Source of the DNA: Deltaproteobacteria bacterium
GTDB taxonomy: Bacteria > Myxococcota > Myxococcia > SLRQ01
Direction: 5' to 3'
Assembly: GCA_029210625.1 (NCBI GenBank)
Contig: JARGFU010000012.1
Coordinates: 124,001-188,000 of the forward strand
DNA: 64,000 nt
The notes below the pieces were generated by a model. That model searched no databases, was not told the origin of the DNA, and worked only from the letters and a program-made list of their open reading frames with translations. Positions 12,288 through 61,351 of the stretch are shown one piece after another. Within the stretch, counting starts at the first letter, position 1. Every line of letters starts with the position of its first letter. Position numbers and translations under genes: made by a program.

Positions 12288-13061
12288 TCAGCTCGCCCGG
12301 CGGGCGGTGATCGCCGCGGCCGAGCCGAGGCCGAAGCGGTGGATCCGCTCGACGGTGAGCCCTCGCGCCTCCAGGCGGCGAGCGACCTCGTCGGGGGTGA
12401 CGTGGCGCAGGATGCTCTCGGCCAGGTAGCGGAAGGAGCGGTGGTCGGCGAAGGGCCGCACCAGGAGGGGCACGATGTGCCGCATCCAGAGGGCGTGGAA
12501 GCCGCGCCAGAGGGCGGGCCCCTGGGGCGGGAAGCCGTCGAGGATGAAGATCCGCCCGCCGGGGCCGAGCACCCGCACCATGTCGTCGAGGGAGGCGTCG
12601 AGGTCCGGGAAGTTGCGCAGGGTGAAGACCGTGGTGACCAGGTCGTAGCTGCCGTCCTCCCGGGGGATGTCGGTGACGTCTCCCTGGAAGTAGGTGGCCT
12701 GCGGGTCCCGGGCGCGGGCCTCGATCAGCATCCCCTCGGAGAGGTCCATGCCCTCGATCGTCGCGTCGGGCGCCCGGCCGGCGAGGTGCCGCACGACCCA
12801 GCCGGTGCCGCAGCCCACGTCGAGGATCCGCATCCCGGCGTGGAGGGGGAGGGCCTTCAGGGAGCGCCAGCGCCACCAGGAGGTCTGCCCCAGGGAGATG
12901 AGGAGGTTCATCGCGTCGTAGCGGCCGGCCAGCCGGTCGAAGACGCCGCGCACGAAGTGCCGCTTGTCGTCGCCGCGCAGCCCCACCGCGACGACGGGCG
13001 TCGGCGAGGTCTCCGGCAGGGTCTCGGGTGCCGATTCCTGGATGCGCGCGGGGAGGGCCAC
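12288..13061 (-). CDS. UbiE/MenG-like class I methyltransferase
   Basis: This SAM-dependent methyltransferase resembles the ubiquinone/menaquinone C-methyltransferase family. Motifs are FDRLAGRYDAMN near the N-terminus, the SAM loop LDVGCGTGW, the acidic GMDLSEGM, and TVFTLRNFPD where UbiE has FGLRNVTD. Many Myxococcota make menaquinone, so methylation of demethylmenaquinone is plausible but unproven. The start is uncertain: GTG 13061 avoids overlap with the divergent protease, while the open frame extends to ATG 13205 through a repeat-containing stretch. The annotated form is 257 residues, close to the usual 230-260. Confidence 0.82.
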   Translation of the reverse strand: MALPARIQESAPETLPETSPTPVVAVGLRGDDKRHFVRGVFDRLAGRYDAMNLLISLGQTSWWRWRSLKALPLHAGMRILDVGCGTGWVVRHLAGRAPDATIEGMDLSEGMLIEARARDPQATYFQGDVTDIPREDGSYDLVTTVFTLRNFPDLDASLDDMVRVLGPGGRIFILDGFPPQGPALWRGFHALWMRHIVPLLVRPFADHRSFRYLAESILRHVTPDEVARRLEARGLTVERIHRFGLGSAAAITARRAS

Positions 13062-13139: not shown

Positions 13140-15263
13140 GTGCGCGCCATCAAACCGACCCTGTCCCGAAGGGGTAGCGCCGTGCACGTGCTCGTGCTCG
13201 TACACGTGCTCGGCCTCTCCCCTGGTACCGCGGAAGCAACGGAGTCGACCGGCTCGAGGAGCGAGATCGCTCCACCGGCCGACGCGGTGGCTCCCCTGCC
13301 AGGCGAGCCGCTCCCCTCCCCCCTCGACCTCTACCTCCAGCGCCTCACAGCGACGGTCGAGGGCCGCGGAGCGCTGGCCCTCCCGGCGGTCTTCCCCGAC
13401 CTGCGCCCCGAGACGCTCGTCCCCCTCTACGCCCGGGCGAAGCCCGGACAGGGCGACGCGCTACGCGCCTCGGTGCTCGCCCTCGGCGGCAGCGCCACCC
13501 ACCTCTCCCGCGAGATCCACGCCGTGCGCCTCCCCGCCGCCGCGCTGGCGGCCTTCGGCGCCCTCCCCTCCCTCTCCCGGGCCGAGGCCTCCCTCCCCCG
13601 CCGTCCCCTGCTCGACACCTCGGTCCCCCTCATCGGCGCCGACCGGGTGCAGACCGGCGAGGGTCTGAACCTGCCCCTGACGGGCAAGGGCGTGATCCTC
13701 GGGCTGGTGGACACCGGCCTCGACTATCGCCACCCCGCCTTCGACGACGCGGAGGGCAACCCCCGGGTGCTCGCCCTCTGGGATCAGACCACCTCCGGGA
13801 CGCCCCCGCCGGGCTTCTCCGAGGGCCACCTCTGCGACGCGGCCAGCATCGCGGACGAGAGCTGCCCCGCCGCCTCGGACCTCGTCGGCCACGGCACCCA
13901 CGTCGCCGCCACCGCCGGCGGGCGCGACCACGACTACGGCGGCGTCGCCCCCGACGTGCGCTTCGTGGTCGCCAAGAGCCTCTCCTTCACCCTCCTGGCC
14001 GAGTCGGCCCGCTGGATCTTCGATCAGGCCGACGCGCTCGGTGAGCCCTGCGTGATCAACATGTCCCTGGGCGGCCACTACGGCCCCCATGACGGCACCC
14101 GCCTCGAGGAGCAGGTCCTCGACGACATCTCGGGTCCCGGCCACGTGCTGGCCATCGCCGCCGGCAACGAGGGCCTGTCGAACCTCCACTTCGGCGCCAC
14201 CCTCGGCGCCGATCCGGTGCGCACGGTCCTCTACGTCGAGCCGGGCTTCGGCTCGGACGGCGGCTTCATCGATCTGTGGTTCGAGGACGACGGCGCCACC
14301 CTCGACCTCGCCCTGCGCGACCGGGACGACTCGGTCCTGGCCGAGACCGGCCCGCGCGGCGCCACCGCGCCGGGCACCCTCGTCCTGCGGGACGGCAGCG
14401 GCGCCGCCTACGGCCAGGTGCAGATCGCCTGGGAGGGGCCGGACCCGGACAACGGGAAGTACCGGGCCAACGTGGTCCTCGTCCCCTCGACCTCGCCGGA
14501 CACCACCGCGGGCAACCCGGCGGGCACCTTCTGGGTGCTCTCCCTCACCGGCACCGGCGGAGTCCACGCCTGGATCGCGAGCAACGCGATGCTCGGCGGG
14601 GGCGCGGCCTTCGGCAACCGCGAGGGCGGCGACTTCCTGCCCGGCGACAGCCGCACCACCGTGGCCATGCCCGGCACGGCCGCCCGGGCCATCACCGTGG
14701 GCGCCCTGACCAGCCGCAAGGCCTGGACCGATCGGGACGGCCGGCCCTTCGAGGAGGCCGCCCTGATCGTCGGAGACCTGGCGGCCTTCTCCTCGGTGGG
14801 CCCCACCGGCGATCCCTCGCGCACGGGCCTCAAGCCGGAGATCACCGCGCCGGGCGAGTACATCGCCGCGCCCTTCGGCCGCAACGCCCTCATCATGGAC
14901 CGCAGCATGATGCTGGAGGAGGACGTCGTCGCCATGCGCGGCACCTCCATGGCCACCCCCCACGTCGCCGGCGTGGTCGCGCTCCTCCTCGAGGCGGACC
15001 CCACCCTCGACCCCGAGGCGATCGAGACGATCCTCACCGAGACCGCCACCGCCGACGGCTTCACCGGCGAGGTCCCCAACGACGACTGGGGCCACGGCAA
15101 GATCGACGCCTGGGCCGCGGCGGCCCGCCTGGTGGGCGAGCCGGCGCCCCCGGCCGATCCCAAGGGCTGCGGCTGCGCGAGCACCGGGGCCACCCCCGGC
15201 CTCGCCGCCCTGCTGCTGGGCGCGGGCCTCCTCGCCCTCGGCCTGCGGAGGCGCCGCGCTTGA
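13140..15263 (+). CDS. secreted subtilase (S8) with MYXO-CTERM-like anchor
   Basis: This serine endopeptidase has the catalytic triad Asp191 (VDTGLD), His251 (GHGTHVA) and Ser603 (GTSMATPH), with about 300 residues inserted between His and Ser that form an extra beta-rich domain. Starting at GTG 13140 gives a signal peptide whose core is made of alternating Val-His/Leu residues. The C-terminus has Gly-Cys-Gly-Cys, a hydrophobic helix and Arg-rich end (about 680-707), the MYXO-CTERM sorting pattern known only in Myxococcota, so the protease is probably surface-anchored. A propeptide likely spans 35-170. ATG 13089 is an alternative start. The esterase gene overlaps its stop. Confidence 0.88.
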   Translation: MRAIKPTLSRRGSAVHVLVLVHVLGLSPGTAEATESTGSRSEIAPPADAVAPLPGEPLPSPLDLYLQRLTATVEGRGALALPAVFPDLRPETLVPLYARAKPGQGDALRASVLALGGSATHLSREIHAVRLPAAALAAFGALPSLSRAEASLPRRPLLDTSVPLIGADRVQTGEGLNLPLTGKGVILGLVDTGLDYRHPAFDDAEGNPRVLALWDQTTSGTPPPGFSEGHLCDAASIADESCPAASDLVGHGTHVAATAGGRDHDYGGVAPDVRFVVAKSLSFTLLAESARWIFDQADALGEPCVINMSLGGHYGPHDGTRLEEQVLDDISGPGHVLAIAAGNEGLSNLHFGATLGADPVRTVLYVEPGFGSDGGFIDLWFEDDGATLDLALRDRDDSVLAETGPRGATAPGTLVLRDGSGAAYGQVQIAWEGPDPDNGKYRANVVLVPSTSPDTTAGNPAGTFWVLSLTGTGGVHAWIASNAMLGGGAAFGNREGGDFLPGDSRTTVAMPGTAARAITVGALTSRKAWTDRDGRPFEEAALIVGDLAAFSSVGPTGDPSRTGLKPEITAPGEYIAAPFGRNALIMDRSMMLEEDVVAMRGTSMATPHVAGVVALLLEADPTLDPEAIETILTETATADGFTGEVPNDDWGHGKIDAWAAAARLVGEPAPPADPKGCGCASTGATPGLAALLLGAGLLALGLRRRRA
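13177..13222 (-). repeat. hexamer array arm inside the subtilase signal-peptide region
   Basis: Read on the minus strand, GGGGAGAGGCC and GAG are followed by CACGTG, TACGAG, CACGAG, CACGTG and CACGGC. This is the same architecture (lead, GWG, four NNCGWG units, a fifth ending in GGC) as the arms at 34101-34134 and 61295-61340. On the plus strand it encodes the Val/His/Leu core of the subtilase signal peptide. Confidence 0.6.
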
Positions 15264-24859: not shown

Positions 24860-25453
24860 CTAGTCGAGGTCGAGGACCTCGGCGAGGCTCTCCAGGCGCC
24901 GGTCACCCGGGCGACGGAAACCGGCGAAGCGCATCCCCGCCGCGGCCGCCGCCTCGGCGTCGAAGCGCGAGTCGCCGATCATCCAGGCGCTGGCGGGGTC
25001 GCAGCCCAGCGCCTCGCAGGCCAGCAGCAGGAGATCGGGGGCCGGCTTCGAGCCGACGCCGGGCCGGGCCCCGACGATCCGCTCCGGGCGCAGGCCGCCG
25101 CCGGCCACCACCCCCTCGGCCAGCGCCTGCGGCGTGTTGGTGACCACCGAGGAGCGCTGCCCCCGGGAGGAGAGGGCCTCGAAGAGCTCGACCCCGCCGG
25201 GCTCGTAGCGCATCGCCCCGGTGTGCTCGAGGAAGTGCGCGTCGTAGTAGTCCGAGACCTCCTCGGGCGTCCGGCCGGGGAACCAGCTCAGCACGTCCGC
25301 CTCCAGCCCCTGCCCCCAACCGGCGTCGAAGGACGCGTCGCTGATGGGGGGCGCGCCGAAGTGGCGGGCCGTGGCCCGGCAGAGCGAGCGCCAGACCTCG
25401 TAGGAGTGCACGAGCACTCCGTCCAGATCGAAGAGGAGCGGCGGCGGGGCCAC
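24860..25453 (-). CDS. HAD superfamily phosphatase
   Basis: This 197-residue HAD hydrolase has motif I DLDGVL, Thr/Asn of motif II in VVTNTPQ, the motif III Lys in GSKPAPD and motif IV in MIGDSRFDAEAAAAAGM, the order of phosphoglycolate-phosphatase-like enzymes with a small helical cap (about 20-80). The substrate is not clear. Translation starts at GTG 25453, two bases after the stop of the upstream dinucleotide-binding gene, so the pair is an operon. It converges on the response-regulator remnant with a nine-base gap. Confidence 0.87.
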   Translation of the reverse strand: MAPPPLLFDLDGVLVHSYEVWRSLCRATARHFGAPPISDASFDAGWGQGLEADVLSWFPGRTPEEVSDYYDAHFLEHTGAMRYEPGGVELFEALSSRGQRSSVVTNTPQALAEGVVAGGGLRPERIVGARPGVGSKPAPDLLLLACEALGCDPASAWMIGDSRFDAEAAAAAGMRFAGFRRPGDRRLESLAEVLDLD

Positions 25454-33223: not shown

Positions 33224-33300
33224 TGGTCGGGAAGACTGGATTCGAACCAGCGACCCCCTGCACCCGAAGCAGGTGCTCTACCAGGCTGAGCCACTTCCCG
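33224..33300 (-). tRNA. tRNA-Pro (anticodon CGG)
   Basis: This 77-base cloverleaf begins CGGGAAG and ends CTTCCCG plus A and an encoded CCA. D stem GCTC/GAGC, anticodon stem CCTGC/GCAGG around TTCGGGT (anticodon CGG), and T arm GCTGG-TTCGAAT-CCAGT all pair. It reads proline codon CCG. It lies nine bases downstream of the rpe stop and just before the terminator, so it is probably cotranscribed with rpe. Confidence 0.97.
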
Positions 33301-33309
33301 ATTTTCGTT

Positions 33310-33990
33310 CTATTTCGCTGCCTCGCGCCGCATCGCCGCGATGACCTCTTCGTAGGAATCGGCCCCGAAGATCGCCGATCCTGCAACCAGGACCGTCGCT
33401 CCGGCATTCGCCACGGACGCGAAGTTCGGGACCTTTACTCCCCCGTCCACCTCGATGTCAACGCGAAGTCCGCGCTTCTGGACGGTATTCGCCAGGGCCT
33501 CGATCTTGGGGAGGACCTGCGGAATGAAGCTCTGCCCCCCGAAGCCGGGGTTCACGCTCATCAGGAGGACCATCTCGACCTCCTCCAGGACGTGATCGAG
33601 CACGTTCAGGGGCGTGTGGGGGTTCAGCGACACCGAGGGCTTCATCCCCGCCTCCCGGATCTGCTGCAGCACCCGGTGGAGGTGGACGCAGGCCTCGGCG
33701 TGGACCGTCAGCACGTCGGCCCCGGCCGCCGCGAAGTCGTCCACGAACGCTTGCGGCTGCTCGATCATCAGGTGCACATCCAGGGGCAGCTTCGTCGTCT
33801 GGCGCAGGGCCTCGACCACCGGGGCGCCGATGGTCAGGTTCGGGACGAAGTGCCCGTCCATCACGTCCACGTGGATCAGGTCGGCGCCGGCCTCCTCGAC
33901 CGCGGTGATCTCCTCGCCCAGGCGGGCGAAGTCGGCCGAGAGGATCGAGGGGGCGATGGCGGGTCGGGATTCGTCGGGTCTCACGGGCAT
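33310..33990 (-). CDS. rpe: ribulose-phosphate 3-epimerase
   Basis: Rpe interconverts ribulose-5-phosphate and xylulose-5-phosphate in the pentose phosphate pathway. The 226-residue TIM barrel has the expected residues: [24 protein letters not shown] (metal and catalytic Asp/His), [19 protein letters not shown] (phosphate loop) and DGGV. The start is ATG 33990. It lies downstream of rsmB across a 156-base spacer holding a hexamer-repeat hairpin, and upstream of tRNA-Pro. Confidence 0.97.
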
Positions 33991-34020
33991 GAACGCGTAG
34001 ATAACAGGTTCTCGGCGACC

Positions 34021-34136
34021 TCGTACACGTACACGTACACGTGCACGTACACGGGTTCTCCCCGGAGCCCGTCGGCGCCTCCCTCGTGCCCGAGGAAAGG
34101 CCGTGGACGTGCACGTGTACGTGGACGTGGACGGCG
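34021..34136. repeat. inverted hexamer-repeat element (two arms)
   Basis: Arms 34021-34054 and 34101-34134 are inverted repeats matching at 30 of 34 positions, with a 46-base loop. Each arm, read outward from the loop, is a G-rich lead, GTG, and five hexamers: TACGTG, CACGTG, TACGTG, TACGTG, TACGAG on the minus strand for the left arm; GACGTG, CACGTG, TACGTG, GACGTG, GACGGC on the plus strand for the right arm. It occupies the spacer between rsmB and rpe and encodes nothing recognisable. Confidence 0.85.
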
Positions 34137-34146
34137 TTGGAGTCGT

Positions 34147-35505
34147 CTAGCGCCGCCGCCAACGCACCCCGAAGAAGCCATCGACGTTGTCCCGATGCGG
34201 CCACGTCGCGAAGAGATGCTCCTCGTCCACGAGACCCTCGAGGGCAGCGCCGGGCTCGACGACGGGCTCCCGCTCGAACTCGGGGTGCTCCTCCTCGAAG
34301 TACTCGATCTGCTGCAGGGTCTCCTCCTTCGTCCAGGTGCAGACGATGAAGACCAGGCGGCCCCCTGGTGCGACCCGGGGGGCCAGCGAGGTGAGCAGCC
34401 TCTCTTGAAGTCCCGCCAGGCGGGTGACGTCCTCGGGACCCCGGCGCAGCTTGATCTCGGGGTGGCTGCGCAGGGTCCCCAGCCCGCTGCAGGGGGCGTC
34501 CAGCACCAGCAGATCCGCCTGCACCCCGGCCTCGTCCAGGTAGGGCATCGGCAGGGTGGCGTCGGCGGCGTGAATCTCCACCCGCTCGCCGAGGCCCAGC
34601 CGCGCGATCTCCCGGGAGAGGCGCCGGGCCCGGGAGGCGTGGAGATCACTGGCGAAGATCCGGGCGTCGGGCAGGGCCTGGGCCAGGTGGGCGGTCTTGC
34701 CCCCCGGCGCCGCGCAGGGATCGAGGACGATCCCGGGCGTCAGGGGAGTCGGGCCCTCCGCCAGGGCGAAGAGGGTGGCGAGCTGCGCACCCTCGTCCTG
34801 GGACTGAAGGCCGAGCTCGTCCCAGCCCGGGAGCTTCTCGGGGGTGCCGGCGCCCTCGAGGAGGATCCCCAGCGGGCTGCGGGGCGTGGGGCGCGCGGCG
34901 AGCCCGGCCTCGACGAGGTGGGCCAGCGCCGCCTCCCGGGCCTCGGGCGAGGCGGCCCGCAGGGTCAGGGGCGCGGGCTGCTGGATCGTCGCGGCCAGCG
35001 CGGCGAGCTCCTCCACCGGCAGGGCCTCCCGCCAGGCCTCGAAGAGCCAGGGGGGCAGCCCCTGCTCGATCAGGAGGTGGGTCGCGGGATCGACGGCGAG
35101 GGGCGGCGCGAGCGCCTCCTCCCGCAGGCGGATCAGCGCCCGCAGGACGGCGTTGATGAAGCCCGTCGCCCGCTCGAGGTGGAGGGCGTGCGCCTGGGCC
35201 ACCGTCTCGCTCACCGCCGCGTGATCGGGGATCCGCAGGTGGAAGAGCTGGTACGCCCCGAGGCGCAGGAGCAGGCGCACCCGCGGCTCGAGCTCCTCCA
35301 GCGGGCGGGTCGAGACCTGCGCGATGCGCCAGTCGAGGGCGAGGGTCTGGCGCAGGGTGCCGTAGGCCAGCTCGGTGGCCAGCGCCCGCTCGCGGGGGTC
35401 GATCACGCCCGCGCGCTCGAGGGCCGCGTTGAGGGCGGCGTTGGCGAAGGCGCCACCCTCCTCCACCCGCTCGAGCACCTCGAGGGCGATCCGCCGGGCG
35501 ATCAT
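34147..35505 (-). CDS. rsmB: 16S rRNA (cytosine-967-C5)-methyltransferase
   Basis: RsmB methylates C967 of 16S rRNA. The 452-residue protein has an N-terminal NusB-like helical domain (1-~140, LATELAYGTLRQ, YQLFHLRIPDHAAVSETV) and a C-terminal RsmB/NOP catalytic domain with SAM site VLDPCAAPGGKTAHLAQ, DAPCSGLGTL (catalytic Cys) and RHPEI-like SHPEIKLRRG. ATG 35505 overlaps the fmt stop by four bases (ATGA). The fmt-rsmB pair is conserved in many bacteria. Confidence 0.95.
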   Translation of the reverse strand: MIARRIALEVLERVEEGGAFANAALNAALERAGVIDPRERALATELAYGTLRQTLALDWRIAQVSTRPLEELEPRVRLLLRLGAYQLFHLRIPDHAAVSETVAQAHALHLERATGFINAVLRALIRLREEALAPPLAVDPATHLLIEQGLPPWLFEAWREALPVEELAALAATIQQPAPLTLRAASPEAREAALAHLVEAGLAARPTPRSPLGILLEGAGTPEKLPGWDELGLQSQDEGAQLATLFALAEGPTPLTPGIVLDPCAAPGGKTAHLAQALPDARIFASDLHASRARRLSREIARLGLGERVEIHAADATLPMPYLDEAGVQADLLVLDAPCSGLGTLRSHPEIKLRRGPEDVTRLAGLQERLLTSLAPRVAPGGRLVFIVCTWTKEETLQQIEYFEEEHPEFEREPVVEPGAALEGLVDEEHLFATWPHRDNVDGFFGVRWRRR

Positions 35506-41359: not shown

Positions 41360-41361
41360 TC

Positions 41362-41426
41362 GGCAGCTACGAGCTGCGAGCGCGGGACACGCCAAGCTCG
41401 AAGCTCATGGCTCGTAGCTCGCAGCC
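41362..41426. repeat. heptamer-based inverted repeat, possible bidirectional terminator
   Basis: Left arm AGCTACGAGC (41365-41374) is perfectly complementary to GCTCGTAGCT (41410-41419). Read on the minus strand, the right part is a run of loose heptamers GCTGCGA, GCTACGA, GCCATGA, GCTTCGA, GCTTGGC; the left part is GCTCGCA, GCTCGTA. It fills the spacer between the convergent HEAT and reductase genes. Confidence 0.6.
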
Positions 41427-41432
41427 GAGAAC

Positions 41433-61283: not shown

Positions 61284-61294
61284 GAGGGCCATCC

Positions 61295-61340
61295 TAGGAA
61301 AGGCCGTGCGCGAGCGTGAGCGCGTGCGCGTGCGCGGGCG
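61295..61340 (+). repeat. hexamer array arm (GC version)
   Basis: TAGGAAAGGCC and GTG are followed by CGCGAG, CGTGAG, CGCGTG, CGCGTG and CGCGGG. The lead AGGAAAGGCCGTG is identical to that of the right arm at 34101-34134 and the units keep the NNCGWG (or NNTGAG) form. It fills the spacer between the lipoprotein at 60729 and the sigma54 activator. Confidence 0.65.
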
Positions 61341-61351
61341 GACCGGGGGCT

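Follow-up and report, generated by a model that had tools for sequence, protein, structure and literature searches.

The element between rsmB and rpe

The window analysed here is the whole 64-kb stretch C12:124001-188000 of a genome of 6.1 Mb in 64 contigs, and both arms of the element under study lie within its 156-bp rsmB-rpe gap. Gene positions and distances throughout come from a codon-usage predictor trained on the same DNA rather than from curated annotation. The features of the locus are as follows.

33310..33990, - strand: rpe (gene prediction; TIGR01163 at 311 bits, cut-off 212.6)
34020..34061, - strand: left arm, with head GGAGAACCCGTG (34061 down to 34050) and five hexamers; arm-model score 33.8
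34062..34093, no strand: centre between both heads, 32 bp
34094..34135, + strand: right arm, with head GGAAAGGCCGTG, four NACGTG hexamers and the tail GACGGC
34147..35505, - strand: rsmB, whose 3' end the element follows (codon-usage gene prediction and NCBIfam)

For the rsmB product, the top NCBIfam models are those of RsmB (E 1e-94 to 1e-79), at scores under the curated cut-offs. Between the outer end of the right arm and the stop codon of rsmB (34147-34149, - strand) there are 11 bp, and 29 bp separate the element from the predicted rpe start. Two tRNA genes were also seen on the - strand of the window, these being tRNA-Pro(cgg) at 33224-33300, downstream of rpe, and tRNA-Arg(gcg) at 24944-25030.

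An earlier note on this DNA had described an inverted hexamer element between the two genes, and the sequence at 34013-34136 indeed reads as it was described. At 34020-34135, two arms are inverted relative to each other, with their heads facing across the centre. Read on its own strand, an arm runs from a head GGRRARN through CCGTG and a series of NACGTG units to an end NACGRS. In terms of blocks, the head of an arm at this locus is followed by CCGT and by GN-ACGT units, four or five in number, before an ACGR block closes it. In the left arm (- strand), GGAGAACCCGTG is followed by TACGTG, CACGTG, TACGTG, TACGTG and TACGAG, and in the right arm (+ strand), GGAAAGGCCGTG is followed by GACGTG, CACGTG, TACGTG, GACGTG and GACGGC. 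While the inversion stands, the limits once given for it (34-base arms around a 46-base loop) do not, as the GGRRAR lead belongs to the conserved arm, which is thus 42 nt long and leaves a centre of 32 bp. A consensus cgggtgcccgtcggcgccgacct... is weakly recognisable both in this centre and in those of other head-to-head copies. As the top inverted repeat of the window, we obtained 34022-34065 and 34090-34133 (44 nt with 84% complementarity and 24 nt between), and TRF returned both arms as period-6 arrays (34022-34053 and 34102-34133). A head-plus-array scan of three mononucleotide-shuffled copies of the window gave no match.

A family of headed ACGT arrays

In its own genome, the element is one of many. 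A search for four NACGWG units had 31 hits in each direction, where the reversed control pattern had one in each, and a sequence model built from 21 arms gave at least 151 matches, with palindromic copies counted on both strands. From 82 stretches of this genome (475 kb out of 6.1 Mb), we catalogued 88 elements. Of these, 37 are single arms and 18 are loop-less palindromes; the others are pairs, 23 of them head-to-head and 10 tail-to-tail. The gap in head-to-head pairs is 24-33 bp and mostly 29-33 bp, and the loop-less palindromes measure about 48 bp with one head per end. Two further copies, one of them a candidate only, are found in the window.

13185..13220, - strand: second family copy, a single arm with some units ACGAG, in the gap of the divergent genes 12288-13061 and 13287-15263
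61297..61332, + strand: candidate degenerate copy with head GGAAAGGCCGTG and an array whose units have drifted to CGCGWG, within the gap 61293-61351; weak score of 12.5-13.1

The family arm can be written CCGT(xxACGT)4xxACGG, where xx is mostly GN, and the outer blocks of this formula differ from ACGT by a C-G in place of the outer A-T pair. The stems of the family are, in other words, short tandem arrays of self-complementary ACGT plus GN, with a period of 6, behind a purine head GGRRAR. Between CCGT and ACGG, the modal number of ACGT blocks is four, though the family ranges from 2 to 8 units, and one 8-unit array shows a regular alternation. Contrary to what had been proposed from the two arms at rsmB, the unit count is therefore not exactly conserved across the family. 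Of 48 arrays selected by their hexamers only, 45 carry the head GGRRARNCCGWG with at most one mismatch, and so the head is no artefact of selection; about 15% of heads read CCGAG. Hexamer arrays with a coding look (Ala-Glu repeats) are also present in the genome (C2:245754-245880, C9:9571-9617, and C54:9118-9162), some of them within 300 bp of a NACGTG element.

Placement relative to genes

Intergenic placement was found for 23 of 23 head-to-head pairs, 17 of 18 palindromes, and 9 of 10 tail-to-tail pairs, with the remaining two copies partly overlapping a gene end. Among the single arms, 14 of 37 fall inside predicted genes, several of these at gene edges. The distance from an element to a flanking 3' end has a median of 14 bp and is no more than 25 bp in 74 of 91 cases, and the median to 5' ends is 62 bp. 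In gaps between codirectional genes, the element is closer to the stop side in 25 of 29 (p=1e-4), and 25 elements are within 25 bp of the stop versus the 9.8 expected from uniform placement. At convergent sites, 40 bp or less of the gap is left outside the element in 22 of 30. Moreover, in the fetched stretches, 21 of 37 convergent gaps bear an element versus 13 of 60 divergent ones (Fisher p=0.0009). Divergent gaps, which have no annotated 3' end, nonetheless hold 13 of the 74 intergenic elements. Relative to the nearest 3' end, 12 single arms are in the same orientation and 7 in the opposite one.

Conservation and folding

The first base of each unit had been noted to differ between the two arms at rsmB, which holds as a free N position; the accompanying claim of a kept unit number fails with the family range given above. 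At N, the paired copies gave no sign of arm-to-arm covariation (35 of 92 matches versus 36.1 by permutation), nor were compensatory changes found between the arms of palindromic copies. For 10 partner arms outside the selection set, 13 of 260 constrained positions are off consensus, while their N positions are only 46% identical between copies. The head-to-head centres are barely above shuffled similarity (best matches of 13.2 versus 11.9). From this small sample of ten arms, we infer that the arm positions are probably under selection, rather than recently copied.

Predicted as RNA, the element at rsmB folds stably on both strands, as a single long stem of -71 and -76 kcal/mol. For paired copies in general, the medians of the two strands lie between about -56 and -62 kcal/mol, with a z of about -5 to -6; the head-to-head copies reach -57 and -59.5 kcal/mol, with a z of about -5 for each strand. 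Palindromes come to about -26 kcal/mol (z about -4.8), and values of -13 to -21 kcal/mol (z -1.8 to -3.5) were obtained for single arms. Together with the 88 elements, a paired fold z of about -5 upholds the suggestion that this is a real hairpin-forming element of characteristic length and not random low-complexity sequence. We observed no consistent U-tract, as the reversed head gives only YTYYCC and this in one orientation only, and a consensus terminator scan called no terminator at the element behind rsmB. A search of Rfam gave nothing at gathering score, and only sub-threshold low-complexity microRNA matches at elements.

Distribution and parallel families

A search for copies in other Myxococcota genomes had been proposed; the exact family is confined to its own genome among those searched. 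Exact four-unit NACGTG arrays are absent from 57 relatives, bar one unheaded GACGTG array; with a shorter pattern, only four others among 147 genomes of the class have matches, one or two each; and with a widened headed pattern, among 195 genomes of the phylum, only G068 matched besides the own genome. Ten matches from a species collection (85k species) and eight viral ones were set aside, as they look isolated and either coding or fortuitous. Matches in G069 and G110 were likewise rejected as relatives, these being plain GACGTG arrays with the head missing; in both genomes (L181-L194), many such headless arrays are intergenic, some straight after stop codons.

Related heads do occur with other stem units. 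The own genome holds about 20 arms of the form GGARAARGAC(GGNRAC)n, several in inverted pairs. In G068, which belongs to another genus, we found about 30 copies of GGAGAAGCCGGG(NACGKG)n, and several of those inspected are directly behind stop codons. G057, from the same genus as G068, has at least 37 copies with GGAGAAGCCGGTGACGGTGACGGG in a longer, more uniform repeat, and 23 of 23 inspected are intergenic; this repeat (L245-L264) is palindromic over about 200 bp, with CCACGGG heptamers, the head GGAGAAGCCGG, and GGTGAC units. The head common to the NACGTG, GGNRAC, NACGKG, and GGTGAC arrays likely reflects homology, a resemblance of sequence that stops short of proof.

A heptamer family (GAGCTNY)n, whose core is AGCT and whose ends are GGCT...AGCC, gave 68 matches in the own genome and none in the 57 relatives. 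All 21 of the 21 inspected places are intergenic, and mostly close to stop codons. One copy lies in the window.

41360..41432, no strand: heptamer-family copy with AGCT core, filling the 73-bp gap between convergent stop codons

The GAGCTNY family thus parallels the NACGTG family, with the same layout and a similar placement.

Comparison with known repeats

The earlier note knew of no named element with this structure and, in fact, our search of the literature available to us on Myxococcota repeats found no description or name for the NACGTG family, but the arrangement itself is of a known kind (REP, BIME, and REPIN). We file the family with the REP/BIME kind, outside any named family. By a general definition (PMC12306157), REPs are extragenic, form palindromic stem-loops, and share a common consensus in multiple copies. 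Here, the 51 paired or palindromic copies all lie between genes, save for partial overlaps with a gene end, the RNA folds give palindromic stem-loops, and one consensus covers the model matches and the catalogued elements alike; REP units so defined are usually transcribed (PMC12306157). As with REP/BIME, the elements are short, extragenic, palindromic, and numerous with a tag at one end, and they share the dimer anatomy of single, head-to-head, and tail-to-tail units (PMC3733652). Contiguity with stop codons has been reported for REP/BIME as well (PMC3733652, PMC12306157). In contrast, the tag is GGRRAR instead of the GTAG or CGTC of the REP superfamilies (PMC3733652), tandem ACGT hexamers, in which a free mismatch recurs periodically, take the place of a single 5-13 bp stem, and a transposase gene was not found beside the family.

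The likeness to REPINs with their RAYT (PMC3116915) is in the inverted doublet with a poorly conserved spacer and a single hairpin, as seen in the 23 head-to-head and 10 tail-to-tail pairs, and in the expansion within one genome. However, a cognate RAYT flanked by the repeat (PMC3116915) was not found beside NACGTG elements; the NACGTG arms lack the compensatory changes that REPIN doublets commonly carry between arms (PMC3116915) and occur also as loop-less palindromes. In bidirectional intrinsic terminators, too, the stop codons of convergent genes are separated by a hairpin that folds stably whichever strand is read, though the NACGTG family is without a reliable U-rich tract, has its own head, and presents its arms in either orientation. 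The STRR of cyanobacteria are comparable dispersed intergenic arrays of short direct-repeat units. The TAACTGA repeats of Beggiatoaceae and cyanobacteria (PMC4679880) are also intergenic arrays of 6-7-base units with many copies and a patchy spread, but they are direct repeats, most in Beggiatoaceae being just upstream of start codons (PMC4679880), whereas the NACGTG elements are inverted, headed, and behind stop codons.

A putative role at mRNA 3' ends

In the explanation that we favour, and which we judge about evenly poised between right and wrong, the element at rsmB is one copy of a lineage-specific REP/BIME-like palindrome family whose hairpins would end or protect mRNA 3' ends in either orientation. 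Upon transcription from either side, an RNA hairpin would form immediately behind the stop codon, made by each arm singly or by both partners together, the latter giving a stem of about 34 bp with periodic N-N mismatches. Such a hairpin may define or protect the 3' end by orientation-independent termination or attenuation, or by blocking an exonuclease. The element behind rsmB would then serve rsmB, and those at convergent sites both genes. Should it terminate fully, the mere 29 bp up to the predicted rpe start would leave little room for a separate rpe promoter. Counted in favour of a 3'-end role are the copy number, the pairing, the placement at stop codons, the stable folds, the arm constraint, and the GAGCTNY parallel. 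Counted against it are the lack of a consistent U-tract, the single arms in both orientations, and the share of genes able to carry a copy, which is a few percent only; the copies in divergent gaps, moreover, are unexplained by a terminator role.

The main rival is a selfish REPIN-type element without host function, whose inverted doublets would be moved as single-stranded DNA by a Y1/RAYT-like transposase and inserted preferentially at hairpin-rich gene 3' ends. The paired inverted layout with its near-fixed centre length, and the presence of the family in one genome but not in the searched relatives, both suit such an element, as do four Y1_Tnp genes in the own genome that resemble REP_Tyr_transpos, and the GGTGAC copies of the other genus, which look recently dispersed. 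One paired GGNRAC copy (C26:847-949) is even found upstream of one of these Y1_Tnp genes, but a single neighbour is within chance by a rough estimate. None of the four genes adjoins a NACGTG element, although in a draft assembly a gene could be missed; their NCBIfam scores are under the curated cut-off, and of the Y1_Tnp loci in the other genus none has a clear element. Moreover, about 95% of the constrained sites are intact even as the N sites approach saturation, which is unexpected for the neutral decay of dead copies. On balance, we regard mobility of this sort as a real but rather doubtful option. As for the surroundings of the Y1_Tnp genes, the GGNRAC copy is an inverted array pair with the head GGAAAAGAC between a gene stop and the transposase gene (L062 826-960), and elsewhere, at the end of a contig (L065 950-1290), dense GAGAAAGGTACC(ACCCACTTGGC) repeats immediately precede a Y1_Tnp gene, where they are possibly the true REP of the adjoining transposase.

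The element could alternatively be a site array in double-stranded DNA, with a protein or methyltransferase reading ACGT cores at 6-bp spacing, for example in nucleoid organisation or in gyrase-like binding as at E. coli BIMEs. This would agree with the orientation independence, the invariant ACGT cores with a free N, and the parallel AGCT family, yet by itself it leaves the placement directly behind stop codons unexplained, as well as the head and the G/C-closed outer blocks (CCGT...ACGG and GGCT...AGCC), which are expected of a hairpin. Nor are ACGT and AGCT avoided in the window (o/e of 1.29 and 1.62), which gives no sign of restriction-site avoidance; a site array seems improbable to us. 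For short tandem repeats grown by replication slippage and of no shared origin, one may point to the variable unit number, the alternating 8-unit array, and the coding hexamer arrays of the same genome. The conserved head largely refutes this, and the inverted pairing across a mostly 29-33 bp gap and the conserved tail also speak against it, so that it is now very unlikely. Hardly credible, finally, is a coding or leader sequence, in which GGAGA-N-GTG-NAC would be a Shine-Dalgarno sequence followed by a V-[YHDN] peptide, or a promoter element of rpe. Even though GTG-NAC is an open frame and the head is similar to a ribosome binding site, GTG is mostly kept where any GTN codes for the same residue, the CCGAG heads are without a start codon, both strands and both orientations occur, and the placement tracks stops rather than starts.

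Implications for the Myxococcota

Beyond the one genome, it is conceivable, though we lean against it, that these families make up an unrecorded Myxococcota palindrome superfamily, in which a purine head GGARAARNC is kept and the stem unit is exchanged between lineages and within a genome (NACGTG, NACGKG, and GGNRAC), each unit with one free mismatch position, and whose members would act as orientation-independent determinants of mRNA 3' ends. If the NACGTG elements are mobile instead, they would form a REPIN-like population lacking any obvious transposase, a case relevant to the spread and constraint of such repeats. If the 3'-end role is true, terminator-like or mRNA-protecting hairpins would be buildable from swappable tandem units behind a conserved head, and this would help explain how transcripts end in GC-rich myxobacteria without clear U-tracts.
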